Positions 521 to 22,201 of a DNA stretch of 64,000 bases are shown here, in pieces (position 1 is the stretch's first letter; each line of letters starts with the position of its first letter). This DNA comes from Pelobacter sp. GTDB lineage: Bacteria > Desulfobacterota > Desulfuromonadia > Geobacterales > Pseudopelobacteraceae. The stretch is taken from positions 1 to 64,000 of the forward strand of contig JAVBXN010000012.1 in assembly GCA_030824515.1 (NCBI GenBank), given 5' to 3'. A model generated the notes under the pieces. It did no database searches and was not told where the DNA came from. It was given only the letters and a program-made list of their open reading frames with translations. The translations under genes were made by a program, and so were the position numbers.

Positions 521-868
521 ATGATAAGCACATGGCTTAAAGAGGTGAAAGAGAGCGCAGACCCTGAAGAATTGGGGATGATTCTGATGCACAACGGCGT
601 TGTTCGTGGGACGTCAAAATACGGAGGGGCTGTACAGGGCATGAAGCTTTCCTACGACGAAGGCAAGCTGATCACTCTCTTGAACAAATATAAAGAGCAC
701 GACGGCATTGTAGAGATAAAGGCGTGGATCAACAGCGGCGAGCTGAACGTCGGCGACGATATAATGTATCTCATGGTGGCTGGAAGGTTCCGCACCGACG
801 TATTTCCGATCTTTGAATCCGTACTTTCCGCAATCAAGAAGGAAGTCGTAACTGAAATGGAAGATTAA
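521..868 (+). CDS. MoaE-like molybdopterin synthase large-subunit homologue (115 aa)
   Basis: MoaE makes molybdopterin by inserting sulfur, carried by MoaD, into precursor Z. The segment GMILMHNGVVRGTSK (about 19-33) matches the MoaE beta-strand with the G-x-VR signature. The stretch WINSGELNVGDDIMYLMVAGRFRTDVF (about 69-95) matches the conserved GEL.VGD....V.....R..AF region. The usual C-terminal PIWKKE motif is absent; the protein ends in IKKEVVTEMED. It is therefore a divergent, short MoaE (usual length near 140-150) and its catalytic lysines need checking. No moaD is next to it. Confidence 0.7.
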   Translation: MISTWLKEVKESADPEELGMILMHNGVVRGTSKYGGAVQGMKLSYDEGKLITLLNKYKEHDGIVEIKAWINSGELNVGDDIMYLMVAGRFRTDVFPIFESVLSAIKKEVVTEMED

Positions 869-5161: not shown

Positions 5162-5208
5162 GATTACCACCTTTTGAAGTTTCGCTGTCAATACGCAGCC
5201 CTACGTTG

Positions 5209-7383: not shown

Positions 7384-8701
7384 GTAGTTTTCCGGCAAGA
7401 ATCTCGGCCCGCTTCTGCCCGTGAATATTTGTCAACTGGTAGGAGCAAAAGGGAATCAATGCGCCGTCCGGGCCGGCAACGGTCATGCTGCACTCTTTCA
7501 GACGCTTGAGGTCCATATCCGTGGCATCCATATAACTCATCACCACAATCGACAGGCCCGGGCCAAGCTCCGGAAACATCTTGTCGGCGATATCCGGCAA
7601 CACTGAACCTTGAGGGCTTGCCGGATCGAAATTCTCCATATACTCTTTCGGTGTGATCATGCTGGTAAGCGCTTTGAAGCGCCCCTTTTCTTCAACGATA
7701 TATGTGGCTGAATCACAGGTTGGATGCGAGCAGCCCAAAGGCCACAAATCATACGCCCCCAAGATGCCGTTACTCTGCCTCGCCAACAGGAAAGCGACAT
7801 CACCCATTGAAAGCCGGCGCTCGTTTGAAACCTCAAAGCGCCCGGAGCCGAAGGCTGGCTGGTAGGCGATACCGGCAATAACATCACGGTTTTCCAGGGC
7901 AAAGCGTAATACATCCCCGATCTGATTCTGGTTGATACCGTTTATGATCGTCATCGCAAGAACAACCTGCACACCCGCCTCCCGGCAGTTTTCGATCGCC
8001 TTCAGCTTTGTATGCAGCAGGTCTGCTCCGCGGATTTTTTCGTAGACATTCGAGGTCAGGCCGTCGAACTGCATAAAAATCCCGCTTATGCCGGCTTCAG
8101 CCAACTCCCGTACGTATTCCGGATTCTGCGCTACCACGACTCCGTTGGAATTTAATTCAATCGACGTGAAACCGATGTCCCTCCCCAGACGGACTATATC
8201 CGGCAAATCCTTGCGGATCGTCGGCTCACCGCCGGTAAGCTGGATACTGGTATTTGGACCGGTTTTTTTCATTATGCCTTTATATATAGCTTCCAGCTCA
8301 GCTAAGCTCGGTCCCGGCTGCGCAGCGGCCTGTACCGCTTCGGCAGCCATGAAACAGACCGGACAACGCAAGTTGCACCGTTCTGTAAGCTCTATCTCGA
8401 CCAGAGTGGGATGACGAAGATGTGACGTGCACAGGCCGCAATCCCGGGGGCACCCTTTTAATGATGCAACTGAATGCTCCGGCTTTACACAGGGAAACTT
8501 GAAAGAGTTCATCCAGGTATAATGATCAACATCAGGCCATAAATATGTTTTGAAGTGCCCATGTTCCGGGCACTCCTTTTCCATAGAGACAAGCTTGCCC
8601 TCGGCAACAACCTGTGCGTCAATAACATCCAGGCAGACCGGACAGACACTTTGCGTCGTGCACAATAACGTGGTAACCGTAGCAGTTTCAGAAACCGTCA
8701 T
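7367..8701 (-). CDS. Radical SAM protein of the MJ0619/Tes (tetraether synthase) type
   Basis: The protein has 444 residues. The N-terminal zinc/rubredoxin-like cysteines C20PVC23 and C44PEHG, then C84-x3-C88-x2-C91 (GCPRDCGLC), come just before the radical SAM triad C109-x3-C113-x2-C116 (ERCNLRCPVCF), and a GGEPT motif follows. This order matches archaeal MJ0619-like proteins, some of which join lipid chains (Tes), and their bacterial relatives. It has an AGGAG site, follows the chemoreceptor gene by 31 bases and overlaps the next molybdoenzyme gene. Family placement is from recall; the reaction is unknown. Confidence 0.8.
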   Translation of the reverse strand: MTVSETATVTTLLCTTQSVCPVCLDVIDAQVVAEGKLVSMEKECPEHGHFKTYLWPDVDHYTWMNSFKFPCVKPEHSVASLKGCPRDCGLCTSHLRHPTLVEIELTERCNLRCPVCFMAAEAVQAAAQPGPSLAELEAIYKGIMKKTGPNTSIQLTGGEPTIRKDLPDIVRLGRDIGFTSIELNSNGVVVAQNPEYVRELAEAGISGIFMQFDGLTSNVYEKIRGADLLHTKLKAIENCREAGVQVVLAMTIINGINQNQIGDVLRFALENRDVIAGIAYQPAFGSGRFEVSNERRLSMGDVAFLLARQSNGILGAYDLWPLGCSHPTCDSATYIVEEKGRFKALTSMITPKEYMENFDPASPQGSVLPDIADKMFPELGPGLSIVVMSYMDATDMDLKRLKECSMTVAGPDGALIPFCSYQLTNIHGQKRAEILAGKLHEKDS

Positions 8702-8732: not shown

Positions 8733-10631
8733 TCAAAGCTTGAACTGACCTACTACGCTACGCAACTCCCCTGCCAGCCCTGAAAGCAGGTTTGCTGATA
8801 CGGCGGATTCATGCGCCCCCTTGGATGTTTCTGCAACCACATCGGTAATCTGATGCATATTACTACTGATTTCAGCAGTAGTAGCCGTCTGTTCCTCGGC
8901 AGCTGTAGCAACCTGATTTATCTGCATGGTCACATCATTGATCTGCTCCAGAATCTTTTCCAGAGCCCTGCCGGAATCAGCTGCTTTTTCACTACCCTTG
9001 GCAACCTCACCAACACCTATTTCCATCGCTTTAACAGCCGCTTGAGTTTCATGCTGGATGGTGCGAATCATCTCGCCGATTTCCTTGGTCGCTTTTGTAG
9101 TGCGTTCCGCCAGCGCCCTTACCTCATCAGCTACAACCGCAAAACCGCGTCCCTGTTCTCCGGCTCTGGCTGCTTCAATAGCCGCATTAAGAGCCAGAAG
9201 ATTGGTCTGATCGGCAATATCCTCAATCGTACCGATAATCTGACCAATCTGCTCGGAACGACTGCCAAGATTTTCAACAGATTGAGCCGTTGCTCTGACT
9301 CTTTCTGCAATGCTGTTCATGACACAAATGGTTTCATCAACCACCTGAGAACCGGAGACTGCCGCAGCGCTTGCCTGTTGAGATCCCTCCGCCGCAAGAC
9401 TACAGTTCTGGGCGATATCACCGGATGTTGCCGCCATCTCCTCACCCGCCGTAGCAACCGTTGAAGCCTGTGCTGCAACTTCCTCAGCCCCTGTTGCTAT
9501 GTGTTCGGAGTTCAAACGTAACTGCACCGAGGCTGAGGCAACCTTTTCAGTTGTCTCTGCGACCCGACTTATCAAGCCATGAAGTTTATCCGCAAAGAGG
9601 TTAAAACAACGTGAGGCTTCACCTAATTCATCTTTTGATGTCGCGTCCAGACGCTTGGTCAAATCACCTTCGCCCTGGGCTATATCCTGCAACATGGATT
9701 TCATGGATTCCAATGGCTTGGTAATACTGGTGGCGATGTATAAAGATATGGCAATCGCCAGGACAAGTACAATCAGGATAATTACCAGTGAGGTCCATAA
9801 AAGGGCATTGAGCTTTGCCAGGACCTCTTTTGCCGGTACATTTACCGCCAGACTCCAGGTTGTCCCGGGAATCGGCGCGTAGGCGATATATTTAACATCG
9901 CCTTTGAACTTATACTGCGCAACCCCCTGCTCTCCTTTTACCATCTTTGCGGTAATTTCTTTTAATGCAGGCGGGGTCGATGCGTCGCTCAGCCCGTTTA
10001 TTTTCATCGCCATATCTGTATTCGGATGAATAATGATCAGGCCATCGCTGCGTACAGCATAAGCATATCCGCTGTCGGCGGCCTTGATTTCCCCGATGAG
10101 CTTTGACATATCTTCCAAGGGGACACCGCCGGCAACACCGCCAATTATTGCTCCATTCCCGGGAGAAGGCGCGGCAACAACCACAACAGCCTTTCCTTCG
10201 GCCTTGGAGATTACCGGATCACTGACAAAAGCTTTACCCGCCATGATCTGCTTAAAATACTCACGCCCGGCAACATTGATCTTTTCACCGGTTGTGAAAT
10301 TTGCATCACCTTTTGCATCCATCATCATAAAAGATAAAAACAAGGAATTACGCTTATGTTCATTTTCAAGATAACCGATAGCAGTTTCAGCAGTGCCGTC
10401 AGTCACTAGCGGAGAGTTAGCCAAAAATGATATTTCACTTTTACGCTCCGCTACCCACATTCCCAGTTTCTGGGCATTATCTTTGGACATGTCCTGCAGG
10501 TTATTTTCCATTTCCTGAATTATTATCTTTTTAGCGTTCCAGTAACTGGCTGCCCCGAAGACATTCAGAGATACAAAAATCAGGAGAACAATGGCCACTG
10601 ACAGCTTTGTCTTGATACTGCGAAACTGCAT
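8733..10631 (-). CDS. Methyl-accepting chemotaxis protein with a periplasmic Cache domain
   Basis: The order in this 632-residue protein is a short cytoplasmic start, TM1 (about 9-31), a periplasmic dCache-type sensor (about 35-275), TM2 (about 278-303), HAMP, and a long coiled-coil signalling domain. The hairpin tip reads EDIADQTNLLALNAAIEAARAGEQGRGFAVVADEVRALAE. There is no C-terminal CheR-tethering pentapeptide. It sits inside the molybdoenzyme run, 24 bases after the membrane subunit gene. This suggests cells are steered toward the substrate or redox state served by these enzymes. Confidence 0.93.
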   Translation of the reverse strand: MQFRSIKTKLSVAIVLLIFVSLNVFGAASYWNAKKIIIQEMENNLQDMSKDNAQKLGMWVAERKSEISFLANSPLVTDGTAETAIGYLENEHKRNSLFLSFMMMDAKGDANFTTGEKINVAGREYFKQIMAGKAFVSDPVISKAEGKAVVVVAAPSPGNGAIIGGVAGGVPLEDMSKLIGEIKAADSGYAYAVRSDGLIIIHPNTDMAMKINGLSDASTPPALKEITAKMVKGEQGVAQYKFKGDVKYIAYAPIPGTTWSLAVNVPAKEVLAKLNALLWTSLVIILIVLVLAIAISLYIATSITKPLESMKSMLQDIAQGEGDLTKRLDATSKDELGEASRCFNLFADKLHGLISRVAETTEKVASASVQLRLNSEHIATGAEEVAAQASTVATAGEEMAATSGDIAQNCSLAAEGSQQASAAAVSGSQVVDETICVMNSIAERVRATAQSVENLGSRSEQIGQIIGTIEDIADQTNLLALNAAIEAARAGEQGRGFAVVADEVRALAERTTKATKEIGEMIRTIQHETQAAVKAMEIGVGEVAKGSEKAADSGRALEKILEQINDVTMQINQVATAAEEQTATTAEISSNMHQITDVVAETSKGAHESAVSANLLSGLAGELRSVVGQFKL

Positions 10632-10655: not shown

Positions 10656-11600
10656 TTACTTATTCCATGCTTTCAGAAACGCTTCGTCGCCAAACGGCAG
10701 GCGGTTTTTGTATTTCTGTTCACCGGGGAGCCAGGTGCGGTCACTGCCGGCACGTACGACGAGGCAGCGTATGCTAACACCTCCCAAAAGGACCAGTAAT
10801 GCGCCAACAGCCTGGGCAATGAGCGAGGACTGCAATAAAAGTATCAGCGGCGCTATAGTTCCTAACAACATGACGATGGATTTGAAACTGGCGGAGATAT
10901 CTCCATCAATCCATCTTTGGGCACTGGCAGCTTCCGCTTCTGTGCCACCGGTACGCTTAACCCAGATGTAGCCGATCCATATTACCAACTGGAAGAATAA
11001 CAACCCTCCTGCCAATGCAGGCAAGGCCTGCATGACACCCGGAAAAGCTACCGGAGGAAGGAGTAAGCCACTCAAAAACTGGGCAGCGACACCGGTAACA
11101 ATGGAAGAGAGCAGAAACAGAGTAATCATGCCGGGCCCAACCCAGAAAGGACGACCTTTATGCCGACTCAGCAGAACACCTGGGTAGGTGGCGACAACAA
11201 GTCCGGTCAACAGGCCTACTGCAGACAAAAACTTACGGGCGGCATTCCAATCCTGCCAGAATAGTTTCTCCATGCCAAACCAGGCAGGATTAAGGCCAAA
11301 AGAGGCATACGCCAGCCCCACAACGATAGCTACTGACATGATCCAGGCACCCGCAGTCAATATGGCCTTGGGGTTCATAAATACGCGCCAGGACTGAAAA
11401 GGCCGCCCCAGTTCAAAAACAAGGAAAATACAGCCGATACACATAAAAACAGGTCCCAGCAGATTACCGACCAGAGAAGTTCTTCCTTCTCCTATAAACA
11501 GCTCAACAATCCCTGCAATTACAAGCATCCCGCCGCCCATCCCCGCAAAGAAGAAATCGACCGCTAACATCCAGCCCCAGCCTTGGTGTTTGTTTTTCAT
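10656..11600 (-). CDS. NrfD/PsrC-like quinone-interacting membrane subunit
   Basis: The start at 11600 follows AGGTGGAG and gives 314 residues; the frame's upstream extension runs into a palindromic element and is rejected. The product is almost entirely hydrophobic helices (about eight), from WGWMLAVDFFFAGMGGGMLVIAGIV onward, typical of the NrfD family that exchanges electrons with the quinone pool. It is the third subunit after the catalytic (12344) and Fe-S (11800) genes. The catalytic partner has no export signal, so the complex should face the cytoplasm. Confidence 0.85.
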   Translation of the reverse strand: MKNKHQGWGWMLAVDFFFAGMGGGMLVIAGIVELFIGEGRTSLVGNLLGPVFMCIGCIFLVFELGRPFQSWRVFMNPKAILTAGAWIMSVAIVVGLAYASFGLNPAWFGMEKLFWQDWNAARKFLSAVGLLTGLVVATYPGVLLSRHKGRPFWVGPGMITLFLLSSIVTGVAAQFLSGLLLPPVAFPGVMQALPALAGGLLFFQLVIWIGYIWVKRTGGTEAEAASAQRWIDGDISASFKSIVMLLGTIAPLILLLQSSLIAQAVGALLVLLGGVSIRCLVVRAGSDRTWLPGEQKYKNRLPFGDEAFLKAWNK

Positions 11601-11617
11601 GGACTCTCCACCTCTAG

Positions 11618-11799
11618 TTAGTTTCCGTCCGGAAACTCCGGACGAAAAACAGTTGGTTTCCGAATCGGAAAACGGGGATTTTTTCACCTGGCAAGGAAAT
11701 CGAGGGGTTGCGCGGAGGCGTACACCGGTACGCCGCACAAGCAAAGCCGAAGATTGACGCCGCCAGGGGGAAAAAGCACCCTTTCCGGACGGGAACTAG
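11618..11799. repeat. Nested palindromic intergenic element between psrB- and psrC-like genes
   Basis: Outer arms 11618-11635 and 11782-11799 are 18-bp near-perfect inverted repeats. Inside lie a perfect 8-bp hairpin (11626-11633/11637-11644), TTTCCGA/TCGGAAA, a T-rich arm matching an A-rich arm around CCTGGC/GCCAGG, and a tip GGCGTAC/GTACGCC (11717-11723/11728-11734). The whole 182 bases can fold as one long branched stem. It fills the gap up to the psrB stop. It resembles a dispersed intergenic repeat or structured RNA; the copy number must be checked in the genome. Confidence 0.7.
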
Positions 11800-12342
11800 T
11801 TAATAGATATAAAATACATACGGTTCAGTATTCAGTTCACCCAGAAGACGAGCAGGATTTTCACCATGCACCAGCTTGTATACATCACTGGTTTCGTCAT
11901 CCAGATCCCCGAAAATACGTGCTTTTTGATGACAGGTATTGACACAGTGAGGTTTTTTACCCACTTCGAGACGATCCTTGCAGAAATCACACTTCTGCAC
12001 TGCGCCGGTTTCGTGGTTTGGAACCCGTGCTCCATAAGGGCAAGCCATTACGCAGGCCAGACAGCCGACACACTTCTTGTCTTCGATGAAAACCACCCCG
12101 TCTTCCCGCTTCTGCGACGCACATGTCGGGCAACCATCGACACATGGCGGGTTGGCGCAATGCATACACAACAGCGGCAAATTGACCATATGAAGATTTG
12201 GATAAATACCTGTCGGACCGATAGTTGTTACCGAGTTGTAAATCATGTCCACCGGAAGCTCATTATGTACTTTGCATGCGACTGTACATGAATGGCAGCC
12301 GATGCAACGCCGTGTGTCTAGAACCATTGCATAGCGTGCCAT
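11800..12342 (-). CDS. Four-cluster ferredoxin-like electron-transfer subunit (PsrB/DmsB type)
   Basis: Sixteen cysteines occur in four groups: CIGCHSCTVAC, CMHC...CVDGC, CVGCLACVMACPYGAR, and CDFC...CVNTC. This is the standard layout for a 4 x [4Fe-4S] subunit linking the catalytic protein with the membrane quinone module. It is 180 residues long and has no signal peptide. Its start lies one base after the stop of the catalytic gene, with an AGGAG site inside that gene's end, so the two are translated together. Confidence 0.9.
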   Translation of the reverse strand: MARYAMVLDTRRCIGCHSCTVACKVHNELPVDMIYNSVTTIGPTGIYPNLHMVNLPLLCMHCANPPCVDGCPTCASQKREDGVVFIEDKKCVGCLACVMACPYGARVPNHETGAVQKCDFCKDRLEVGKKPHCVNTCHQKARIFGDLDDETSDVYKLVHGENPARLLGELNTEPYVFYIY

Positions 12343-12343
12343 C

Positions 12344-14584
12344 TTAATTCTCCTCCTTTAGATCAGAAGCTTCTACTTTACATACCCGGCAAAGCAGGCC
12401 GCGGTTAGCCCAGGCGCCGCTGTACGGATCGCAATCCTCGTCGGCAGAACTTGTCAGGATATTGGCATTTGATTCCAGGCAACCACCCAGTTCCGGCAGA
12501 TTTATCTCACGCTCCGGATACCACCAGCCTCGCTGGGTATAGATAACCCGGGGGTGAATCCCCTCTGTCAGGTTGGCTTTCTGCTTGATACGGCCACGCT
12601 TGGTTTCGATCCAGACCCAATCGCCTTCTTCGATAAACAATTCGGCTGCAGTAGCCGGATTGATATCCATGTATGGCTCATGGCGCAGGAAGCGCAGATC
12701 CTTGATCTGGAAATGTTCGGAGTGGTGGTACGGCATGAACCCGCCTCCGGTCGTCAGAACCAGCGGAAACTCCTTGGCCAGCACAGGATGATCGACTTCG
12801 TTCTCCGTCGGCCCGATATACGGCGGCAACGGAGGATAGCCAAGATCCTTGAGCACGGTGGAGTACAGCTCGACCTTCCCTGATGGCGTTGCAAATCCCT
12901 GACGCTCGTATTTTGAATATTCACGCTCCGGGAAATGGAAACGGTAACGGTCAACGAACTCGTCATAACTGCTGACGTCATACCCGAGCGGAGCTATGCG
13001 GTGATAATACGCGTCTTCCACCGTTTCCCATGGCCACTGACCTTGCTGACCGACAGCCAGACCGAGATCACGCCAGAAATTGTAGTCATTACGGCGTTCA
13101 TACATCGGCTGGATTGCCCGCTGAGATGCAAGCAGGAAGTCGGAACAACCGTAGGTACTGGTGATTGTCGGACGCTCAAGGGCTCCGGCGATCGGCAACA
13201 CGTAATCGGAAAGGGATGCCGTCGGTGTCATCCAATAGTCGCAGGTAATCATGAAATCAACGGCTTGCAGCGCCTCCATCACCAACTTTGTTTCACCATA
13301 GGAGTTGATCGGGTTGGTAGCGTTAACCAGCAGAGCCTTTACCGGATATGGTTTTTCGGTCAGGATCGCCCGGAAAACTGATGGTGGATGGGCCTCGCAC
13401 ATCCATTCAGCCGTCGGCGCCTTGCCCCATACTTTTCTGGTTTCTTCGGCGATGCGGCTGTAACCCGGCCATGTCACCAACTTGAAACGATCAGAACCGA
13501 TCTGTTTGGTTTTCTGGATATCTTGTAACTGGTCGTTGGCTTCCATCTCTTCATCGGTAATAAAATCCGGGCTGGGTCCGGTCAGAAGATCGGCGCCGGG
13601 TACATCAAGATTGCCGGTTATCGCCCGCAATATTGCACGGGCATGCATGGTGGAACCCGCCGGTTTGCCGATCTGATCGACGGATGTTCCCCATTGAATG
13701 TTGCCCGGTTTATTCATCGCGTACATATAGGCACTTTCCCGGATCTGCTCCGGTGTCAGCCAGGTAAGCGGCGCAGCCCATTCAGGAGTAAATTCCTCGA
13801 CATGATCGGCCAGCTCGCCAAAACCCTCGCAACTATTTGCCACAAACTCCTGGTCGAACAGACCATCATAAATAATGACGTTTATCCACGCCAGCGCCAG
13901 CGCCAGGTCGGAACCGGGACGCAGCGGCAACCAGAGATCTGCCTTGGCGGCTGTCTCGCTGAAACGCGGGTCAATGACGATGACTTTCATTCCCTTGGCC
14001 TGGAAATCGGTTATATGGTGCATCTCCGGCATACCTGCCGCTCCCGGGTTTTGCCCCCAGAGCACCAGACAACGACTGTTGCCCATATCGAGCTCAAACG
14101 GACACCAGCCATAGATGGCGGTTTCCACCATAAATGTCGGAATCCAGCACAGATGAGAGTTGTGGAAGCCGTTCGGACTGCCGAACTGATTCATGAAACG
14201 CCTGCGTGCCCAGTCATCCGTACGCTGAGTTCCACCGGCAGTTGCCACCGCTTCCGCACCAAAGTCATCACGGATTTTGGAAAGCTTGGCGCCTATCTCT
14301 TGTATCGCCTGATCCCAGGGAATCTGCTCCCATTTCCCCTCGCCGCGCTTGCCGACCCGCTTTAACGGGTAGTTAATCCTTGCGGGATGATCAAGGTGAT
14401 CCAGGGCGATATTCCCCCGACAGCACAAGCCCCCCTGGTTTGTCGGGAATTCAGGATCACCCTCGATATCAAGTACCTTGCCGTCTTTGACATAGGCCAG
14501 GACACCACAATTCTGGTGACAAAAGTAACAGGCCGACTTCTTTACTTCGATACCCTCTTGTTCCAAATCGATATTTTTGCTCAT
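12344..14584 (-). CDS. Catalytic subunit of a PsrA/acetylene-hydratase-like molybdo/tungsto-enzyme
   Basis: The protein has 746 residues, a 4Fe-4S site (C19-x2-C22-x3-C26...C54) and bis-MGD-binding segments (KVIVIDPRFSETA, ATPSGKVELYS). Cys146 (SHLCWIP) is the likely Mo/W ligand by comparison with acetylene hydratase. There is no Tat signal. It is first in the long minus-strand run and lies behind a sigma-54 promoter at 14731-14746. With genes 11800 and 10656 it makes a three-subunit complex. Polysulfide/thiosulfate-type reduction or another cytoplasmic reaction is possible; the substrate is not readable. Confidence 0.87.
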   Translation of the reverse strand: MSKNIDLEQEGIEVKKSACYFCHQNCGVLAYVKDGKVLDIEGDPEFPTNQGGLCCRGNIALDHLDHPARINYPLKRVGKRGEGKWEQIPWDQAIQEIGAKLSKIRDDFGAEAVATAGGTQRTDDWARRRFMNQFGSPNGFHNSHLCWIPTFMVETAIYGWCPFELDMGNSRCLVLWGQNPGAAGMPEMHHITDFQAKGMKVIVIDPRFSETAAKADLWLPLRPGSDLALALAWINVIIYDGLFDQEFVANSCEGFGELADHVEEFTPEWAAPLTWLTPEQIRESAYMYAMNKPGNIQWGTSVDQIGKPAGSTMHARAILRAITGNLDVPGADLLTGPSPDFITDEEMEANDQLQDIQKTKQIGSDRFKLVTWPGYSRIAEETRKVWGKAPTAEWMCEAHPPSVFRAILTEKPYPVKALLVNATNPINSYGETKLVMEALQAVDFMITCDYWMTPTASLSDYVLPIAGALERPTITSTYGCSDFLLASQRAIQPMYERRNDYNFWRDLGLAVGQQGQWPWETVEDAYYHRIAPLGYDVSSYDEFVDRYRFHFPEREYSKYERQGFATPSGKVELYSTVLKDLGYPPLPPYIGPTENEVDHPVLAKEFPLVLTTGGGFMPYHHSEHFQIKDLRFLRHEPYMDINPATAAELFIEEGDWVWIETKRGRIKQKANLTEGIHPRVIYTQRGWWYPEREINLPELGGCLESNANILTSSADEDCDPYSGAWANRGLLCRVCKVEASDLKEEN

Positions 14585-14730: not shown

Positions 14731-14746
14731 TGCAGTGACTATGCCA
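14731..14746 (-). promoter_or_regulatory. Sigma-54 promoter for the psrABC-like operon
   Basis: On the minus strand the sequence is TGGCAT-AGTCA-CTGCA. The GG and GC doublets have exactly the -24/-12 spacing (consensus TGGCAC-N5-TTGC). Transcription would begin near 14720, about 136 bases before the start codon at 14584. A shared 26-bp element lies 72 bases upstream. Confidence 0.7.
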
Positions 14747-14779
14747 TTGGAATAAAATATGCAAGTACCTGTAATAACG

Positions 14780-14795
14780 TGGCTTATTAGCCGCA
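14780..14795 (+). promoter_or_regulatory. Possible sigma-54 promoter facing the HdrD-like gene
   Basis: TGGCTTATTAGCCGCA keeps the GG/GC spacing of a -24/-12 promoter but has CCGC in place of TTGC. It points at the gene starting at 14864. The enhancer-like element lies downstream of it rather than upstream, so the call is weak. Confidence 0.35.
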
Positions 14796-14818
14796 ATCAG
14801 CAGCTAAAATTATTGTTA

Positions 14819-14844
14819 TGATAAGCTGATTATCAATTTGAAAA
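14819..14844. promoter_or_regulatory. Shared 26-bp regulatory element, copy 1
   Basis: TGATAA-N5-TTATCA-N3-TGAAAA. The first two half sites form a perfect dyad. The same 6-5-6-3-6 arrangement recurs at 17104-17129 and 22176-22201. Its near edge is 73 bases from the outer end of the -24 box at 14746, the same distance as in copy 3. It is a likely binding site for a sigma-54 activator and could serve both divergent units. Confidence 0.65.
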
Positions 14845-14863
14845 CACCGAAAGGGGAATCTCC

Positions 14864-15967
14864 ATGAAAAGCGACGGGATTGAGCATGCGATCGACAACT
14901 GCATGGAATGCGATATATGCGCAACTGACTGCTTGTTTTTGCGTGAAAGCGGGGAATCTCCCGCCGCAATGGCAAGGCGGGGCATCACCGCAAGCGAAGC
15001 ATACAGCTGTTCTTTGTGCGGCCTCTGCGCTGCAGTGTGTCAACAGGGAGTAAATCCGATGGAAATGTTTGCCGAGCGCCGTCGCGAAGCTGTATCAAAC
15101 AACGAGATCGAAATCGATGATTACCGTTATATGTTTCCGGACCGGATAAACAACGTGATGAGCGTTTATCGCCAGGAGTCCGGCATCGATTACAGTGAAA
15201 CCGATTCTTTCAAAGATGCGGATACCTGTTTTTTTCCAGGCTGCACATTAATGACCTATTCACCCGCTCTAACCATAGAGACGTTCAAACGGCTGAAATC
15301 CAGCGGTGCTTGCCAGGAGATGTGGACAGAATGCTGCGGAAAACCTCTGAACCAATTGGGATTACAACAGAGGCTGGAAAACATGCATAACAACCTGAAA
15401 CAGTTTGTAAAGGAACACAACATAAAGCGGCTAATCACAGCCTGTCCCGGCTGTTATTATGAATTGCGCGACATCTTCAAAGCAGATGAACTCAAGATTC
15501 AGACGGTCTACGAGGTCCTGGCCGCTGACAACCCGACCCATAACACAACGGGACGATACACGATTCACGACTCCTGCCCCGATCGTAGCGAAGGGGTCTT
15601 TGGCAGACAAGTACGTAGAGCCCTGGAGCAGCAAAATTGCGCAATAGTCGAAATGACACACAGCAGGAGAAACACGATCTGCTGCGGCAGCGGCGGCCAA
15701 CAATCCCATTTTCGCCCTGACCTGGTGGATGAAGTCGTGCAGATGAGACATGAAGAAGTTAAACGGGCCGGCGCTGACACTCTTGTGGGATACTGTATGA
15801 GTTGTGTTCTGAAATATGACGGAAAAATGCCGGGAGTATCCGTGGTTCACGCCTTGAGCCTGCTTCTTGATGTCGAAGTTGATTACAAGGGCGCCAAAGA
15901 CCGGGCAGGCAAAATGCTGAGCGGTACTCACGGAGAACAGTTGTGGGAGAAAATAATGGCAGAGTAA
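14864..15967 (+). CDS. HdrD/GlpC-like protein with two 4Fe-4S clusters and two CCG domains
   Basis: The protein has 367 residues. The N-terminus has C13-x2-C16-x2-C19-x3-C23 and C49-x2-C52-x2-C55-x3-C59, typical 4Fe-4S ferredoxin motifs. Two CCG domains follow (CFFPGC...CCGKPL...CPGC and HDSCP...CCGSGGQ...CMSC), as in heterodisulfide-reductase subunit D and related thiol/disulfide electron-transfer enzymes. There is no membrane segment. It is transcribed away from the molybdoenzyme operon from a shared 280-base regulatory region. It may pass electrons between cytoplasmic thiols or ferredoxin and that system; this role is inferred. Confidence 0.85.
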   Translation: MKSDGIEHAIDNCMECDICATDCLFLRESGESPAAMARRGITASEAYSCSLCGLCAAVCQQGVNPMEMFAERRREAVSNNEIEIDDYRYMFPDRINNVMSVYRQESGIDYSETDSFKDADTCFFPGCTLMTYSPALTIETFKRLKSSGACQEMWTECCGKPLNQLGLQQRLENMHNNLKQFVKEHNIKRLITACPGCYYELRDIFKADELKIQTVYEVLAADNPTHNTTGRYTIHDSCPDRSEGVFGRQVRRALEQQNCAIVEMTHSRRNTICCGSGGQQSHFRPDLVDEVVQMRHEEVKRAGADTLVGYCMSCVLKYDGKMPGVSVVHALSLLLDVEVDYKGAKDRAGKMLSGTHGEQLWEKIMAE

Positions 15968-16122
15968 GCGTGTAATACCAAGTTGCATTCAAGATGACAT
16001 TAACGTGTAGGGGCTAGGCTTGCCTCGCCCAATACGTGGCGGGCTTTTTCGCCACAAAGTCAGTGGTTTTAGAGTCATCTTTATTGCAAGGTGGAATAAG
16101 TACCTGCGGGTCAGGTCAGCTT

Positions 16123-16161
16123 CTCTTGATTCGGCCGATCGGTGGCCGGCCGAATCAAGAG
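16123..16161. repeat. Perfect 15-bp inverted repeat hairpin
   Basis: Arms 16123-16137 and 16147-16161 (CTCTTGATTCGGCCG and its exact complement) enclose a 9-base loop. There is no T tract on either side. It lies between the convergent HdrD-like gene and the 80-aa gene and may act as a bidirectional transcription block. It may also be the remnant of a mobile element, as the flanking 15970-16120 has no gene. Confidence 0.6.
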
Positions 16162-16183
16162 GATGTCAGGTTCATATATTCAA

Positions 16184-16426
16184 TTATGCCGACACACACT
16201 CAACTGCATTGCCGGCTTCGAGCATCTTTGCCTTCTCAAAAAGCTTATGTGCCTTTGTTTGCCCCACTACCAGATTATTAGCCAAAATTAGTTGATTACT
16301 CATATCATTCGGTGTAAGCCGATTCGCATACACTACCGACGTTTCAAACAGCCCTTTCAGCATGAGAAACCCCTTGCGAAGTTCCTGTATTTCTTTTGTC
16401 GTTACGGTAATTTTTTCTTCTCTCAT
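16184..16426 (-). CDS. Hypothetical helical protein (80 aa)
   Basis: The ATG at 16426 follows AAGGTGG at good spacing. The product is predicted mostly helical (TKEIQELRKGFLMLKGLFET...) with no membrane segment and no known motif. It lies in the gap between the HdrD-like gene and the hybrid kinase, close to another small minus-strand gene. The function is not recognised. Confidence 0.5.
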   Translation of the reverse strand: MREEKITVTTKEIQELRKGFLMLKGLFETSVVYANRLTPNDMSNQLILANNLVVGQTKAHKLFEKAKMLEAGNAVECVSA

Positions 16427-16545
16427 TTTCCCACCTTTTTGAAAAGTTATTTTACAGCAGCATAGCCCAAACCAATATCATTCATTGCAAGACACAATTC
16501 AGACCAAGGGCAAGAAGCAAAGTTTCAGAATACATTGAACCGGTT

Positions 16546-16794
16546 TCAGAAGCTCGCCGGTTTACAGCAGACAGGCGACAGAACACGTATCGACCGTGCT
16601 ACGGAACTACTCGAACCTCTCTCAAAAACCCGCCAGGAATCTTCCTGCTGCGCCAATGTTTCAATGGCAGCATTTAAGCAGTCCTTACATATACCATGCG
16701 AAATACCACCGTTTGAGCCGATTTCCGAAGGATTTATTTCGATATCGATTCCACACCATGCGCATATTATTTTTATGAAATTAACATTATTCAT
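16546..16794 (-). CDS. Small CxxC protein, likely zinc-binding (82 aa)
   Basis: The N-terminal half contains IICAWCGIDIE and SHGICKDCL. This paired CxxC (C-x2-C about 23 residues from C-x2-C) resembles the short zinc-ribbon tail seen on some sensor proteins of this bacterial group. The C-terminal half is charged, then serine-rich. A GGTGGC site precedes the start. It is divergent from the hybrid kinase, whose regulatory region begins at 16800. Confidence 0.5.
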   Translation of the reverse strand: MNNVNFIKIICAWCGIDIEINPSEIGSNGGISHGICKDCLNAAIETLAQQEDSWRVFERGSSSSVARSIRVLSPVCCKPASF

Positions 16795-17103
16795 TTAACA
16801 GCCACCAAAGCAGGAATTTTCTCAAGTTCACCATTATTTATGGTGACCTTGGCTCTCAAATTACAAATCAAACAGGATTCCTCGCACACACCAGGATTAC
16901 TAGCATGGAGCGTGCCATTAAAATCTGCCCCACAACCTGCTACTATTGTTTGATTTATTTATCCAACCTTTCGCGTGCATTCCTTTTTTGACAATAATAT
17001 TCAACATAACAACACCGCGAAACAATGAATAACAATCGCCACACCACCCCGAAGATAGCCAAAGATCGTTGTTTTTTTATGAAAACCGCTTTGATTTCCA
17101 AAA

Positions 17104-17129
17104 TGACACAAGCATTATCAAAATGACAA
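17104..17129. promoter_or_regulatory. Shared 26-bp regulatory element, copy 2
   Basis: TGACAC-N5-TTATCA-N3-TGACAA has the same half-site spacing as at 14819 and 22176. Its near edge is 63 bases upstream of the -24 box at 17193. It is a probable enhancer site for the kinase gene. Confidence 0.6.
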
Positions 17130-17192
17130 TGCTTTAACTATTTTTTATAAACATAATTTAATGACACCGGACAGTTGCATAATTTTCTTTGT

Positions 17193-17207
17193 TGGCACAA
17201 TCGCTGC
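17193..17207 (+). promoter_or_regulatory. Sigma-54 promoter of the hybrid kinase gene
   Basis: TGGCAC-AATCG-CTGC is a nearly perfect -24/-12 promoter. Transcription would start near 17219, giving a leader of about 140-180 bases. Confidence 0.75.
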
Positions 17208-17357
17208 TAATGCACAAAAACATCATTCATTGAATATCCGGGACGCGTTGCATATCCGAAGCTGATCACGACATCAGTTGCATTACAAGATAGTCGTAGC
17301 GGGCAGCCTGGTCCCAGAAAACAACAACCAGCCACTACAAGCAGCAGGAGGTTTTGA

Positions 17358-17411
17358 ATGCAGACATTATACGAATTCAGCTCGCTCACCAAAGTCGAGT
17401 ATGAAGCATAA
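17358..17411 (+). CDS. 17-codon upstream reading frame overlapping the kinase start
   Basis: AGGAGG at 17346-17351 stands at ideal distance from the ATG at 17358. The frame reads MQTLYEFSSLTKVEYEA and stops at 17409-17411, eight bases past the first base of the kinase ATG at 17401. It could be a leader peptide coupling translation. Alternatively it is the true N-terminus of the kinase separated by a frameshift. It is the best ribosome site in the region, so it should not be ignored. Confidence 0.4.
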   Translation: MQTLYEFSSLTKVEYEA

Positions 17412-18972
17412 ACCGCCCCCTTTCGGAATCCTGGAACGTAGAGCAAACGAAGAAAACCTCCGTAAGAGTGAAGAGCAAAAATCATCAATTCTTGACGCAA
17501 TTCCCTGTGCAGTTCTTGGCGTAAAAAATCGAATGATTATCTTTGCTAACGATTCAACGGAAAACGTTTTTGGCTGGAAACCTGGAGATCTCATTGGAAA
17601 AAGCACGAGAATGCTTTACAGGAATGAGGCGGATTTCAATGAAATTGCAGTGTTACTTAACAAGTCCTCCTGGAAGAAGCGTAATTACAAAATTGAGTTT
17701 ATCTGCCGCAAAAAAAGCGGTGATGCGTTCTTATGCCGAATGAGCGTTGGCAAAAGGCATGTACTGGAAGAAAAAGACATGGTTATTGTTTTTGAAGATA
17801 TCACGGAGTACAAACGCAACCAGGAAGAGCGGGACTGTCTCCAGGCGCAGGCTCTTCAAGCTCAAAAGCTGGAGGCTATCGGCACACTGGCTGGCGGCAT
17901 TGCCCATGATTTCAATAACTTGCTGACTGGCATCATGGGAAATCTATCCGTTGCGCTCATTAAATCAGGAAACGACGATGTCAGCACGTCCCTGCAGCGG
18001 GCACTGCAAGCGTGTGAACGGGCTACGCAGCTGACACGACAGCTGTTGACCTTTGCCAAGGGTGGGGCGCCGGTCAAACAACTGGCATCGGTTGCTGAAA
18101 TCGTCCGGGATTCGGCCGAATTCGCGCTGCGCGGGGCGAACGTCGCCTGCAAATTTGAAGTAACGGACGACTTATGGGCGGCAGAAGTGGATACCGGGCA
18201 ATTGAGTCAAGTCATAAGCAACCTCGTAATCAACGCAGATCAGGCAATGCCCAACGGCGGACTTCTGAATATCGCCATTAAAAACGTGGAGTTTAAGCGA
18301 GCCTCACATAACCTTTCTGCCGGTCGCTACATCATGATCACCGTCTCCGACAGTGGAGGAGGCATCTCCAAAACATCCATAGGCCGAATTTTCGAGCCAT
18401 ACTTCACCACCAAAGCTTCGGGGAACGGTCTGGGGCTGGCAACGACACACTCAATCATTACCCGGCATGGCGGTCAGATTGAAGTAACATCAGAAGTAGA
18501 ACGCGGTACAACCTTCACCATTTACCTGCCTGTATCAAGCATTATAAAACTGGATGAAGCACAGGTGGAGCAGGTTCAAATTTCAGAGGGGACCGGCAGA
18601 ATCCTCCTCATGGATGACGAAGACTTTATCCGGGATGTCGTGGTCGATATGCTTGAAATGATGGGGTATGAATGCGTCACCTGTGAAAACGGCCAGCAGG
18701 CCTGTACCTTGTACAAGCAGGCTTTGGAAACAGGCTGTCCTTTCTCGGCCATCATCATGGATCTGACCATCCCTGGTGGAATGGGGGGAGTGGAAACAAT
18801 GGCCGAAATCAGCCGGATAGATCCGATGGCACGGGGTATCGTGGCCAGCGGCTACTGTGGCGATCCGGTAGTTGCGTCGTTCAGAGATTATGGTTTTGTG
18901 GCTGCTATTTCGAAGCCGTTTTCTCTGAGTCAAGTGGCAGAGACGCTTGCAGAGATTCTTGCTCCAATGTGA
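17401..18972 (+). CDS. Soluble PAS-histidine kinase-receiver hybrid
   Basis: From the ATG at 17401 the protein has 523 residues. It has a PAS domain (about 25-135), a HisKA motif with the phospho-accepting His169 in GGIAHDFNNLLTG, an HATPase domain (N box NLVINADQA, G boxes SDSGGGISK and GNGLGLA), and a C-terminal receiver with Asp454 (IIMDLTIPG). There is no membrane segment. It carries its own receiver but no output domain. It lies behind a sigma-54 promoter sharing the element used by the molybdoenzyme operon. The frame extends upstream to a TTG at 17278 without a ribosome site. Confidence 0.85.
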   Translation: MKHKPPPFGILERRANEENLRKSEEQKSSILDAIPCAVLGVKNRMIIFANDSTENVFGWKPGDLIGKSTRMLYRNEADFNEIAVLLNKSSWKKRNYKIEFICRKKSGDAFLCRMSVGKRHVLEEKDMVIVFEDITEYKRNQEERDCLQAQALQAQKLEAIGTLAGGIAHDFNNLLTGIMGNLSVALIKSGNDDVSTSLQRALQACERATQLTRQLLTFAKGGAPVKQLASVAEIVRDSAEFALRGANVACKFEVTDDLWAAEVDTGQLSQVISNLVINADQAMPNGGLLNIAIKNVEFKRASHNLSAGRYIMITVSDSGGGISKTSIGRIFEPYFTTKASGNGLGLATTHSIITRHGGQIEVTSEVERGTTFTIYLPVSSIIKLDEAQVEQVQISEGTGRILLMDDEDFIRDVVVDMLEMMGYECVTCENGQQACTLYKQALETGCPFSAIIMDLTIPGGMGGVETMAEISRIDPMARGIVASGYCGDPVVASFRDYGFVAAISKPFSLSQVAETLAEILAPM

Positions 18973-19015
18973 CTTCAAAGTCCGACAGCTCAGCCAACCA
19001 CCTGTGCCAATCCGT

Positions 19016-22000
19016 TTACGTTGAAAACAAAGGGCAATCAACACCCATACATTCACTGTTGCGAGCCACCTGGCTACAGGCAAACAGCTCCACCGCAGGC
19101 AGTTCAAGCCCCCACATTCCCTCAGCAATCCGCAGCCCGCTTCTTAAAGCGATCCAGCTGTCACGCTGGCAACAGCGGGCGGCCTTGTACCCCGCTATCT
19201 CCGCCAACACCTGCTGGACGATCTTTTGCACTTTCTGACGGGCTTCCCCCTTCAGTGGCGTAGCCTCCAACAGGACGCTGAAGGCAATCCCGACACCGAC
19301 AGCAGCTCCGCAGACCCCCATGAAGCCACAGCTCCCTCCGCTCACTTCGCCACCACGCTGGACACCGGAGCGGATCTGCTCAGCAGACACCGGATGGCCG
19401 GCATTTCGCAAACAAGCCAAGAGCAGACCTGGCACCAGTGAATGGTACTGTGGTCCATGCAGCGGGAAAGATGGGTGACGGCGGAATTCGTGAAAGAGGA
19501 CCACCGGATCGCTTTCCGTAGATGTGCTACAGAGATGTTCGATCAATTCGAGGGCGTCGCCGGTATGGCAACGATCACAAACGAAGTGCCCCTGTTCACA
19601 GCAGGCATTGGCCGGAAGGCTCTTCCCGCAAAAATGGCAGGAGGTTACCTGCTCAGTCGTATAATACATCAAGGGAGCGCCGCAGACCATGCAGCCGGAG
19701 TCATGTACAGCCGGAGCTGGAGCGACGGAGACCGTGTGCGCTTCCGGAGATATGCAGCAGTTTGCACCGGCGGCAATAGCAACGTTGGTGACAAACCCAT
19801 GTTCATCAAGCAACCAGACCTGTTCGCCGAGATGTTCCGCATCCGCTGCGGAGATGGCAGCGCTCTGGCCGGGACGCAACAGTTGGCCGCCGGAGGTGAG
19901 CAATCCGCTCGCAGGACCGGGGTAGAAGGCGTTGACCATGACCGGCCGCGTGATGACCGGCTTGCTGACGACAAAGGTTAGCGAGTAAAAGGGATGGCCG
20001 TTGACCACCCGGTAGGGGAGCCGCTTTAATACCCGGAAGCCACTGAAGCCGCTCTCCTCCAGGATTCCGAGGAGATCTTTCTGGGTCATGGCCCCGCTGA
20101 TACATTCGCCCCGCAGGGTCTCGTCATTCAAAATACCGGCATCCGGCTCAACCTCACAGACGACATCCGCCGTAACCAGTCGTCCCCCCGGAGCCAGCAC
20201 CCGGAAGATCTCGCTGAATGTCATCCGCTTGTCTGCCGAAAGGTTTAGCACGCAGTTGGAAACGATGACGTCGGCAACGGCATCCTGCAGCGGCAATTCC
20301 TCCAGAAATCCGTTGGCAAATTCAAGATTGTCGAAACCGAGTGAGCGGCGCACATCCTCTGCCGCTCTGCGTGCCAGCGAAAGCATCGGCTCCAGCATAT
20401 CGACGCCGGTCACCATGCCGGTCTTCCCCACCAGGCGTGCAGCGATAAAACATTCCACCCCGCTGCCGCAGCCGAGATCGACCACCCTCTCCCCGGCTTT
20501 GAGTCCCGCATCCATCACCGGACTTCCGCAGCCGTACCCACGAAAGCGGTAGGCTGGGGGAATATGCTCGATCAGGTTTTCATCGTAATGCACCGGATTC
20601 AGGATCTCGCTCCGCTTGTCACCGGCAGCGGCGGCATAATATTCTCCAACCTTGCTGCGGCTGTCGGTCGAGCCATTCAGTGAAAGCAGGCAATTGGTAT
20701 GGCAGAGCGCAACCGGGCCGTGACTGCCGCAACTGACCAGCAGCTCCCCCATCTTCAGGCGCAACGCGGCAGCTGATGATTCAGGCAGACGCAGCGCGGT
20801 GCGGCGGATAAGCGTAAGCGCCACCTGCTCCATCAATGGCTGATAGGGATCATTCCCCGTAAACGTGCCGGCCTGGTAATAGCTGTGATCGAGATCTCCC
20901 CCGCCGAGCAGAAAACGCCACGGGTCATCAAGACCAGCCGCACTGGTTGCACGTATCGCGGAAAGCACCGGACTGTTCTTCCAGGCGTTGACAATACCAT
21001 CCGTGATCGGGGTGGCCAGCGCGTCCAGCCCGATAGTGGCGGCAGTGGGATACAGCCTGTCGTCAGGCCCGACGGCGGCGGCTTCCCACCCGGCGGCCGA
21101 CCCGTCGTAAATTGTGCCGGGGGGCGAGAACAACTGCCCTTTCAGGTTTTCGATATTGTCGATGATGATGCCCCTCGCCTCCGCCCGATCCATGGCCGCG
21201 ACAACAAAAGGGAGGAGTTCAAGTGGCGCAAGCTGCTGTTTGGCACTCCCCCTGCCGCGAATAAAGTGCCACATCAGGTGAACGGCGGCGGCTCCCCGGT
21301 CTGCGGCATAATCCACCAACCAGGGGAGATCATCGGCATTTTCCGCGGTGACACAGCAACTGAGGGTAAAACGCCACTGGTTTCGGGCCAGCCATGCAAG
21401 TTGCTGTTCAAGCTGCTGAAACCTGCCGGGTCCGCGCAGGCTGTCATGCCGTTCCGGCGTGCCGTCCAGACTGATTTGCAGATGAATCCGCTCCCGTGGC
21501 CATTCCGGTTTAAACTGCCCGGAGACGAGCAGACCGTTGGTCAGGAGCGCAATCCGGCTGTCCTGAATCGACAGAATCCGGTCTATCAGCCGGGTAAAAT
21601 CTGGATGCACGAGTGGTTCGCCGCCAGTCAGCGCAAATAGTCGGCATCCCTGTTCGGCGGCCTCTTCAACATGCTGCCGCAACCGCGCCAAAGACAGCTC
21701 CGCCTGCGCGTCACCGCCGGAACTGAATAGGCAGTGCGTACAGGCAAGATTGCAGCGGTCGGTAATATGCAGCCAAAGCTCACTCAGCACACGGCCTTCG
21801 GACTGCTGCGCTACCCTCCCCTTGTAGGCGTTTTGAGGCGGATCGGGCAGACGCAGCAGGAACGCGCGTGCCGCGAGATCATCAGAAGTTTCATTATCGG
21901 TGAGGCCACAGAGGAGCCGGTCACCGGCGGTCGTGGGTACAAACCAGGAGGGACAGCCAGGACAGAGCCAGACAGCTGTTTCAGAGATTGTTGTGCGCTT

Positions 22001-22024
22001 CCAGCGGGTTGGTTCAAAGGCCAT
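19016..22024 (-). CDS. Three-domain fusion: radical SAM/SPASM-like, methyltransferase, DUF5714
   Basis: The protein has 1002 residues. After CPGC at 21-24, the radical SAM triad is C91-x3-C95-x2-C98 (DRCNLACTHC), with LTGGEPL after it. A class-I SAM methyltransferase resembling ArsM/UbiE spans about 470-680, with VVDLGCGSG at about 513-521. A cysteine-rich C-terminal part from about 775 (CMVCGAP, CHFCG, CDRCH, GGSCGFMGVCG, ECMGVDCP) matches DUF5714 from recall. All three parts are cytoplasmic. A perfect sigma-54 promoter and the shared element lie upstream. It suggests one protein that generates a radical, methylates, and holds a metal or thiol intermediate; the substrate is unknown. Confidence 0.82.
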   Translation of the reverse strand: MAFEPTRWKRTTISETAVWLCPGCPSWFVPTTAGDRLLCGLTDNETSDDLAARAFLLRLPDPPQNAYKGRVAQQSEGRVLSELWLHITDRCNLACTHCLFSSGGDAQAELSLARLRQHVEEAAEQGCRLFALTGGEPLVHPDFTRLIDRILSIQDSRIALLTNGLLVSGQFKPEWPRERIHLQISLDGTPERHDSLRGPGRFQQLEQQLAWLARNQWRFTLSCCVTAENADDLPWLVDYAADRGAAAVHLMWHFIRGRGSAKQQLAPLELLPFVVAAMDRAEARGIIIDNIENLKGQLFSPPGTIYDGSAAGWEAAAVGPDDRLYPTAATIGLDALATPITDGIVNAWKNSPVLSAIRATSAAGLDDPWRFLLGGGDLDHSYYQAGTFTGNDPYQPLMEQVALTLIRRTALRLPESSAAALRLKMGELLVSCGSHGPVALCHTNCLLSLNGSTDSRSKVGEYYAAAAGDKRSEILNPVHYDENLIEHIPPAYRFRGYGCGSPVMDAGLKAGERVVDLGCGSGVECFIAARLVGKTGMVTGVDMLEPMLSLARRAAEDVRRSLGFDNLEFANGFLEELPLQDAVADVIVSNCVLNLSADKRMTFSEIFRVLAPGGRLVTADVVCEVEPDAGILNDETLRGECISGAMTQKDLLGILEESGFSGFRVLKRLPYRVVNGHPFYSLTFVVSKPVITRPVMVNAFYPGPASGLLTSGGQLLRPGQSAAISAADAEHLGEQVWLLDEHGFVTNVAIAAGANCCISPEAHTVSVAPAPAVHDSGCMVCGAPLMYYTTEQVTSCHFCGKSLPANACCEQGHFVCDRCHTGDALELIEHLCSTSTESDPVVLFHEFRRHPSFPLHGPQYHSLVPGLLLACLRNAGHPVSAEQIRSGVQRGGEVSGGSCGFMGVCGAAVGVGIAFSVLLEATPLKGEARQKVQKIVQQVLAEIAGYKAARCCQRDSWIALRSGLRIAEGMWGLELPAVELFACSQVARNSECMGVDCPLFST

Positions 22025-22088
22025 GAGCGTGTCCTGTTAAATATCCATCCATCAATTGCAGATACCGATCAGCATGCAATCGATAGAC

Positions 22089-22103
22089 GCAAAAAAGGTG
22101 CCA
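22089..22103 (-). promoter_or_regulatory. Sigma-54 promoter of the 1002-residue fusion gene
   Basis: On the minus strand TGGCAC-CTTTT-TTGC is an exact match to the -24/-12 consensus. Transcription would begin near 22077, about 50 bases before the ATG at 22024. Confidence 0.8.
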
Positions 22104-22175
22104 TTCAAAAAGCGACATCAACATGCCTGATTTATTCATCTTGAGGTTTAAGACGGTAGCCGATGTTTATTGTTA

Positions 22176-22201
22176 TGACAAAGCGCTTATCATTTTGATA
22201 A
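22176..22201. promoter_or_regulatory. Shared 26-bp regulatory element, copy 3
   Basis: TGACAA-N5-TTATCA-N3-TGATAA. Together with the preceding TTATTGTTA it matches copy 1 in 28 of 36 ungapped positions. Its distance to the promoter (73 bases to the outer end of the -24 box) is identical to copy 1. Confidence 0.65.

Follow-up and report, generated by a model that had tools for sequence, protein, structure and literature searches.

A putative sigma-54 regulon of molybdenum/tungsten enzymes and its XylR/DmpR-type activator candidate in a Pelobacter genome

Three transcription units in a 64,000-nucleotide stretch of Pelobacter sp. DNA (the whole stretch is called the window here) were described, from the letters of the sequence, as having -24/-12 promoters and a shared 26-base-pair (bp) element upstream. 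This raises the question of whether the three units form one sigma-54 regulon, and which activator would control it, its gene having been placed outside the window. The multi-unit regulon of this preliminary description is supported by a scan for the element, by the promoter geometry, by the discovery of a candidate activator gene, and by the co-occurrence of that gene with the element. Judged from sequence, the probability that a sigma-54 regulon with a XylR/DmpR-type activator controls the window promoters is about 0.88.

All three promoters and all three elements were present at the positions given previously, and a recount confirmed that copies 1 and 3 are identical at 28 of 36 positions. 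The 26-bp element was real, occurring far above the level in shuffled sequence, but the true unit is larger. Alignment of the window sites with better-matching sites elsewhere in the genome revealed a roughly symmetric, bipartite 35-bp site, in which two 15-bp imperfect palindromes are separated by a 5-bp spacer. The first half is a TTATCA-N3-TGATAA palindrome and the second is a 15-mer of the form TTRTCA-WAA-CAAKAA or TTATCA-N3-TGAYAA, giving a 20-bp period. Candidate activator site 1 (TTTTCAAATTGATAA-N5-TTATCATAACAATAA, read toward the promoter; 14810..14844, minus strand), which was detected by pattern and matrix, belongs to promoter 1 (TGGCATAGTCACTGCA; 14731..14746, minus strand). Candidate site 2 (TTTCCAAAATGACAC-N5-TTATCAAAATGACAA; 17095..17129, plus strand), detected by matrix, belongs to promoter 2 (TGGCACAATCGCTGCT; 17193..17208, plus strand), and candidate site 3 (TTATCAAAATGATAA-N5-TTGTCATAACAATAA; 22167..22201, minus strand), whose distal half pairs at 6/6 positions, belongs to promoter 3 (TGGCACCTTTTTTGCG; 22088..22103, minus strand). 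The gap from the end of the element to the T of TGGC, read toward the promoter, was 63 bp in all three cases. Copy 2 had been placed 64 bases from its promoter and the other two 73 bases, about one helical turn more; this difference was a registration artefact, because all copies had been read on the plus strand though promoter 2 points the opposite way. A weaker candidate, site 4 (16980..17014, minus strand), has the proximal half TTGTCAAAAAAGGAA and a degenerate distal half, and was found by a promoter-anchored search 62 bp from promoter 4 (TGGCACGCTCCATGCT; 16902..16917, minus strand).

The pattern TGAYAM-N5-TTATCA-N3-TGAWAA, with up to three mismatches, matched the window six times (three places on both strands), compared with an expectation of 0.22 ± 0.42 and a maximum of 1 in 100 shuffles. 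Genome-wide, the same pattern and tolerance gave 43 matches versus 15 in a backwards control, that is, the same search on sequence read backwards. Because this was unspecific, an oriented 35-bp pattern was built instead. At up to three mismatches, it matched the 4,653,444-bp genome six times and the backwards control 0 times. Two of these matches were in the window, three were on contig C19, and one was on contig C42, where it belongs to a 98% copy of the final 163 bases of C19; window copy 2 was missed because it is too diverged. When the window was scored with a matrix whose training set held copies 1 and 3 and not copy 2, the three sites ranked at the top (50.5, 47.7, and 24.3), and the next best place scored 14.7. 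An additional C19 site (74961-74995) scored 21.9 bits and has a -24/-12 promoter at 62 bp.

The window promoters fit a TGGCAY-N5-TTGCW-like consensus, with GG and GC 10 bp apart, in agreement with the sigma-54 consensus given in the available part of PMC3063778. The strict pattern TGGC-N7-TGCW was no commoner in the window than expected (4 matches versus 6.3), and none of its matches was a promoter of the preliminary description; a -24/-12 motif by itself is therefore of little weight. Promoter-anchored searches (TATCA or TGTCA, 71-74 bases, then TGGYAY-N6-TGCW) yielded nine matches in this genome and 0 in the backwards control. Eight were known or neighbouring sites, including promoter 4 and C19:63888 (minus strand), and copy 3 was missed because its promoter ends in TGCG. 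The ninth, C51:30145, resembles matches in genomes G075 and G101 and was taken as chance. Outside the seven genomes with a close activator homologue (see below), each search gave 0-3 matches per genome.

The geometry of an activator bound upstream of sigma-54 polymerase, as originally suggested, was well supported by the spacing across genomes. In 340 kilobases (kb) scanned with the matrix from six genomes, namely the present one (G000; the first 40 kb of the window plus stretches of C19 and C42), G092, G116, G117, G125, and G113, 36 places scored at least 22 bits, with 0 in the reversed-sequence control. The best -24/-12 within 120 bp started 62-65 bp past the element in 35 of the 36 places and 57 bp past it in one; two of the 36 (C19 end and C42) are copies of one repeat. 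Among the 13 places that did not train the matrix, 12 had the promoter at 62-64 bp and one had it at 57. The oriented pattern matched 25 times in the seven activator genomes, and 23 of these matches, leaving out the C42 repeat copy and the site in G114, were examined for promoter spacing. In 23/23, the best -24/-12 within 220 bp sat 62-65 bp downstream. The scan of this and related genomes, which had been set beforehand, thus tied the element to -24/-12 promoters and not to random positions. The site centres lie near -107, as estimated from the -24/-12 motifs, at the near edge of the range of about 100-200 bp described for the palindromic upstream sites of DmpR-type activators in the accessible text of PMC7264223.

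Comparison with G092 covered sites 1, 2, and 4, the G092 contig stopping before site 3. Site 1 was identical at 32/35 positions, promoter 1 at 15/16, and the remaining intergenic sequence at 175/228. The corresponding counts were 30/35 for site 2, 29/35 for site 4, 16/16 each for promoters 2 and 4, and 363/505 for the remainder, indicating that the promoters stand out clearly and the elements moderately. Among more distant named loci (the best 80 of at least 560 relatives), only L115, which is G092, and L127 reached at least 24 bits, and in L127 the -24/-12 lies at 54 bp; the distribution of the full 35-bp form is therefore narrow. Shorter TATCATAATGATA sites with the spacing of the full element adjoin the activator homologue in three of the five Geomonas loci listed (L118, L119, and L125); no such site was found beside the homologue at the other two (L124 and L126).

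The activator gene was found outside the window, as anticipated. On C19 (75297-76928, minus strand), a gene whose own 5' end bears a site encodes a 543-amino-acid (aa) sigma-54 activator candidate, P0001. The site lies 15 bp upstream of the called start codon, and its -24/-12 points away from the gene. The protein consists of XylR_N, V4R, sigma-54 AAA, and Fis-type HTH_8 domains, all above Pfam cut-offs, V4R barely so (32.5 versus 31). Its best NCBIfam score was with MobR (360 bits, under that model's cut-off of 999), and its top PDB match was DmpR/CapR 6iy8, over residues 7-468. The sensor domain matches MopR, DmpR, and PoxR. His91 and Trp118 align with the phenol-anchoring His and Trp of MopR, and Cys139, Glu162, Cys165, and Cys173 align with its zinc ligands; all six were invariant in the eight sequences aligned. 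This corresponds to the available descriptions in PMC7264223 and PMC10715001, in which the hydroxyl of phenol is held in DmpR by a His and a Trp, and zinc is bound by three Cys and one Glu. P0001 was the sole protein of the XylR_N sensor type found in this genome at E <= 1e-15, and RpoN is encoded on C6. This XylR/DmpR-type regulator is the most likely binder of the 35-bp sites.

A search of 141 genomes of the order found that an NtrC-type activator, as looked for, does co-occur with the element. Seven genomes (G000, G092, G116, G117, G113, G114, and G125) had a homologue with a sensor at least 59% identical, and all seven contained the element, with 1-8 matches each. Among the other 134, eight held it, with one match each at 2-3 mismatches; the backwards control gave 1 match in 141. 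A Fisher test of this link gave 3e-8, which is indicative, the genomes being related and kinship uncorrected. Among the homologues at least 50% identical, 20 of 29 had, within 400 bp of their own start and pointing away from it, a unit of TRTCA plus -24/-12; among those below 50%, 0/49 did. Contig C1 of G116 encodes eight XylR_N-type activators in one 4.1-Mb genome, some of them close to the same element.

Several points weigh against this reading. The sensor match to MopR is just 91 bits, and the AAA loop, which in this family contacts sigma-54, reads GSFTGA in P0001, a conservative change from GAFTGA, which the G113 homologue has. All seven activator genomes come from one family. Nine of the 29 homologues at 50% or more have no strict divergent unit, including three of the four best G116 paralogues and the best G125 homologue, the latter having one by matrix; several paralogues in G092, G116, G117, and G125 also mean that there is more than one candidate binder in those genomes. 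Of the 36 sites, 23 (window copies 1 and 3 among them) had served to train the matrix, and the 340 kb had been selected for holding pattern matches or activator genes. Promoter-anchored searches also matched genomes without a close activator (52 of 141 genomes matched in each search), and single matches numbered 7 and 9 in the corresponding backwards controls across the 141 genomes. The matrix score of site 4 was -8.8, far under the threshold. Finally, the gene of a 778-aa enzyme, which stands behind one of the sites in G092 (see below), was not found in the present assembly.

The regulon probably comprises about ten candidate sigma-54 promoters in one island of the genome, with the window contributing three and probably four. 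Seven of the roughly ten score at least 22 bits, and one is the repeat copy at a contig end. As to the mechanism, a phenolic or related aromatic ligand would fill the N-terminal XylR_N/V4R pocket of the activator. The activator, seated on the two palindromes near -107, would then contact sigma-54 polymerase and open the promoter using ATP. These steps are proposed because they are established for DmpR-type proteins, and binding and activation by the C19 protein are presumed by analogy. The predicted output would include acetylene-hydratase/catechol-dehydroxylase-like molybdenum/tungsten (Mo/W) enzymes with electron-transfer subunits. It would further include Mo-cofactor synthesis, probably molybdate uptake, and transporters, one of them of the aromatic-acid-symporter type. 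A chemoreceptor (for chemotaxis to the compound), a hybrid kinase, and radical SAM enzymes would complete it.

Within the window, operon 1 appears, from gene spacing, to run from 12344-14584 down to a MoaC gene at 4679, all on the minus strand. Its first gene (12344..14584) encodes the acetylene-hydratase-like Mo/W enzyme A (746 aa, no signal peptide by eye). It is followed by genes for a 4Fe-4S ferredoxin-type subunit (11800..12342; Pfam Fer4_11), a NrfD/PsrC-like membrane subunit (10656..11744; Pfam NrfD), and a chemoreceptor (8733..10631; dCache_1, HAMP, and MCP signalling domains). Next come a TrsS-like/Tes-like radical SAM protein with a HMPTM-type zinc ribbon (7367..8701; NCBIfam TrsS 395 and Tes 336 bits, both below cut-off) and the acetylene-hydratase-like Mo/W enzyme B (5209..7398; 729 aa, from its PDB match). 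MoaC (4679..5191; molybdenum cofactor synthesis, from the domain search) closes the tightly spaced run. Genes of the trpE/trpG type (anthranilate or aminodeoxychorismate synthase) lie downstream at 2079-4157, and in the same place in G092. Promoter 2 precedes a hybrid histidine kinase (17401..18972, plus strand; PAS, HisKA, HATPase, and receiver domains), whose start codon was picked by eye. A 17-codon open reading frame (ORF) at 17358-17411, after an AGGAGG-like sequence and partly conserved in G092, overlaps this start and is possibly a leader or coupling peptide. Promoter 3 precedes a 1002-aa fusion of radical SAM, ArsM-like methyltransferase, and DUF5714 domains (19016..22024, minus strand; domain search). 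Downstream of promoter 4 are two small minus-strand ORFs with no Pfam match, one of 82 aa with a CxxC motif (16546..16794) and, farther on, one of 80 aa (16184..16426). A MoaE-like protein is encoded at 521..868 (plus strand); its G092 homologue comes after a site, the 778-aa enzyme, and the Fe-S (iron-sulfur) partner of that enzyme.

The window begins at base 1 of contig C13, and one 128,531-base G092 contig carries homologues of C19, C42, and the window in that order, with some extra genes. This arrangement makes it most likely that C19, C42, and C13 belong to a single island, interrupted at a repeated promoter; the C19 end and the C42 start do carry a repeated sigma-54 promoter. Listed in order, the genes near sites are those for an MFS transporter; moeA-moaA-DUF2064-DUF169 and the genes after them; a 178-aa protein with no Pfam match and a Mrp/NUBPL-type ATPase; and the activator (C19:75297-76928). 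These are followed by a CDGSH protein, a porin-like protein (by eye; no Pfam match), and MobB; an MFS protein of the aromatic-acid symporter type (NCBIfam 328 bits, cut-off 419); and a further MFS protein, ModE, and the molybdate transporter ModABC, joined in G092 by a QRPTase-family protein. The 778-aa Mo/W enzyme with its Fe-S partner and then MoaE come next, before window operon 1 and the remaining window units.

The 778-aa gene occurred in 4 of the 141 genomes, namely G092 (the query source) and, at 86-93%, G116, G117, and G125. In the same genomes the activator sensor is 63-74% identical to that of G000, so the greater conservation of the enzyme may reflect recent transfer or strong constraint. 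This enzyme (L100:623-2959, in G092) has an unusual N-terminal cluster motif, CGWSPPGDHPVGCG. Enzyme A was present at 88-97% in 4 of 140 other genomes (G092, G116, G117, and G125), all with the element; distant relatives (40-44%) occurred in these four and in G097, G030, and G005. In G113 and G114, which carry the activator and a single site apiece, neither enzyme A nor the 778-aa enzyme was found at E <= 1e-150. At G092 C15:70121 and G117 C1:557565, a site and a -24/-12 stand ahead of radical SAM genes; the former product scored 416.5 bits with the ArsS model (cut-off 300), and the latter gene is similar by eye. Arsenosugar-biosynthesis-like parts recur in the regulon, namely these radical SAM proteins, DUF2064, and the ArsM-like domain of 19016-22024.

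The best PDB match of all three island enzymes was acetylene hydratase 2e7z (266, 436, and 351 bits, the second being enzyme A), and in enzymes A and B the match spanned almost the entire sequence. Operon 1 had been called psrABC-like. Among solved structures, however, its catalytic subunit scored 436 bits with acetylene hydratase and 242 bits with thiosulfate reductase 2vpw, and the psrABC identity was rejected. Asp13 and Cys141-Ile142 lie at the active site of acetylene hydratase. The Asp13 position is His in enzyme A and Gly in enzyme B, the Ile142 position is Trp in both, and the Cys is retained. As Asp13 and Ile142 are not conserved, an acetylene hydratase function for A and B was rejected. 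Catechol dehydroxylases are described in the consulted part of PMC7028382 as Mo enzymes grouping nearest acetylene hydratase, with homologues in Geobacter. The three island enzymes share this closeness to acetylene hydratase in preference to other bis-MGD enzymes, solved structures being compared.

Divergent from the activator homologue at Geomonas L118, Trichlorobacter thiogenes L116, and G113 lies a flavoprotein gene, whose best NCBIfam score was with vinyl phenol reductase (341-384 bits, cut-off 600). It stands behind a site in L118 and G113, and the single match in L116 lies past the gene; a PDB search with the T. thiogenes flavoprotein returned nothing at 1e-40. Together, the sensor pocket and the neighbouring flavoprotein point to phenolics as the signal and perhaps the substrate. 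The ligand is probably a phenolic compound. More tentatively, and at somewhat less than even odds, the Mo/W enzymes may convert an aromatic compound, perhaps through reductive dehydroxylation. A broader scheme is unlikely as a whole: a phenolic-inducible island that makes a modified Mo/W-pterin for its enzymes, with phenolics such as catechols and hydroxycinnamates serving as respiratory electron acceptors and the chemoreceptor steering the cells. In this scheme, one activator would switch on molybdate uptake together with a large part of Mo-cofactor synthesis, namely MoaA, MoaC, MoaE-like, MoeA-like, and MobB proteins (MobA-like in relatives), and CofC-like nucleotidyl/glycosyl transferases (DUF2064, weak matches) and radical SAM proteins whose zinc ribbon is of the pterin-methylase (HMPTM) type would also be enlisted.

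The sites could instead be bound by a different regulator, with the XylR-type gene merely nearby; examples are ModE, another NtrC-type protein, or a response regulator to which the hybrid kinase passes its signal. A ModE-like gene does lie within the island, the hybrid kinase is among the targets with a receiver-domain protein adjoining it in G092, and relatives have several activator paralogues. We nevertheless regard this as quite unlikely. The divergent unit at the start of the XylR-type gene is frequent among close homologues and absent from the more distant ones, and its 20 cases take in ten genomes of genus g21 that yielded no enzyme A at 88% or more. The gene behind the site in L118 and G113, moreover, encodes a flavoprotein and is not a Mo gene, which counts against a Mo-dependent regulator. 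Promoters of the -24/-12 type require an AAA activator, and ModE is none; as the site also stands before flavoprotein genes, ModE was judged an unlikely regulator.

An acetylene metabolism, in which the Mo/W enzymes would be acetylene hydratases induced by acetylene or an alkyne, draws on the match of all three enzymes to 2e7z. It is very unlikely, given the replaced Asp13 and Ile142 positions, the NrfD membrane subunit accompanying enzyme A, which is expected for a redox enzyme, and the phenol-type His/Trp pair of the sensor. That the element merely reflects chance or the composition of AT-rich promoters can be practically dismissed: its half-sites are AT-rich, and the eight genomes with single matches have no close activator, but the excess over shuffled sequence in the window, the near-empty backwards controls, the fixed spacing in 35/36 places, and the conservation of sites 1 and 2 in G092 all argue against it.

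The XylR/DmpR-type regulon favoured here has relatives among known systems. Like XylR, DmpR, MopR, MobR, and PheR, the activator has the XylR_N-V4R-AAA-HTH_8 architecture with the phenol-anchoring His/Trp and the zinc ligands kept, and its gene is arranged divergently to a target that carries a palindromic site and a -24/-12 promoter. The DNA sites found here, tandem copies of TTATCA-N3-TGATAA repeating every 20 bp and ending 63 bp short of TGGC, differ from those of XylR and DmpR, which are of the TTGATCAATTGATCAA type. Regulators of this family are also at work in the anaerobic degradation of phenol, where the target of PheR is the pps-ppc phenol cluster, according to the part of PMC10715001 at hand. 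In contrast to PheR, many promoters are involved here, and the targets combine Mo/W enzymes with the supply of metal and cofactor. The enzymes resemble catechol dehydroxylases, as these are described, in being acetylene-hydratase-nearest Mo enzymes with 4Fe-4S and membrane partners; as presented in the sections available of PMC7028382, Dadh, Hcdh, Cadh, and Cldh have such partners in some cases and are induced by their own substrates. Its statement on Geobacter homologues cites the G. lovleyi genome paper. Gut catechol dehydroxylases have other or LysR-type regulators in what was available of PMC11887054, whereas the candidate here is of the XylR/DmpR type. The acetylene hydratase of Pelobacter acetylenicus (2e7z) is the best solved relative of all three enzymes, but A and B are without its Asp13 and Ile142, and A comes with additional redox subunits. 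In the open literature, subscription papers being outside the search, no description of this regulon was recognised. The regulatory kind is thus known, the regulon and its DNA site are new, and the target set is unusual.

Mo enzymes resembling acetylene hydratase and catechol dehydroxylases are widespread in anaerobes. The vast majority of dehydroxylase homologues are uncharacterized according to the available portion of PMC7028382, and in Geobacter lovleyi SZ, 11 molybdopterin oxidoreductases were counted and a function was named for five, as far as the accessible part of PMC3403914 states. In the present regulon, a defined DNA code appears to place the expression of such enzymes under a sensor whose pocket residues resemble those of phenol receptors, so that the inducer could hint at the substrate, and a sigma-54 system appears to supply the metal cofactor jointly with the enzymes that require it.

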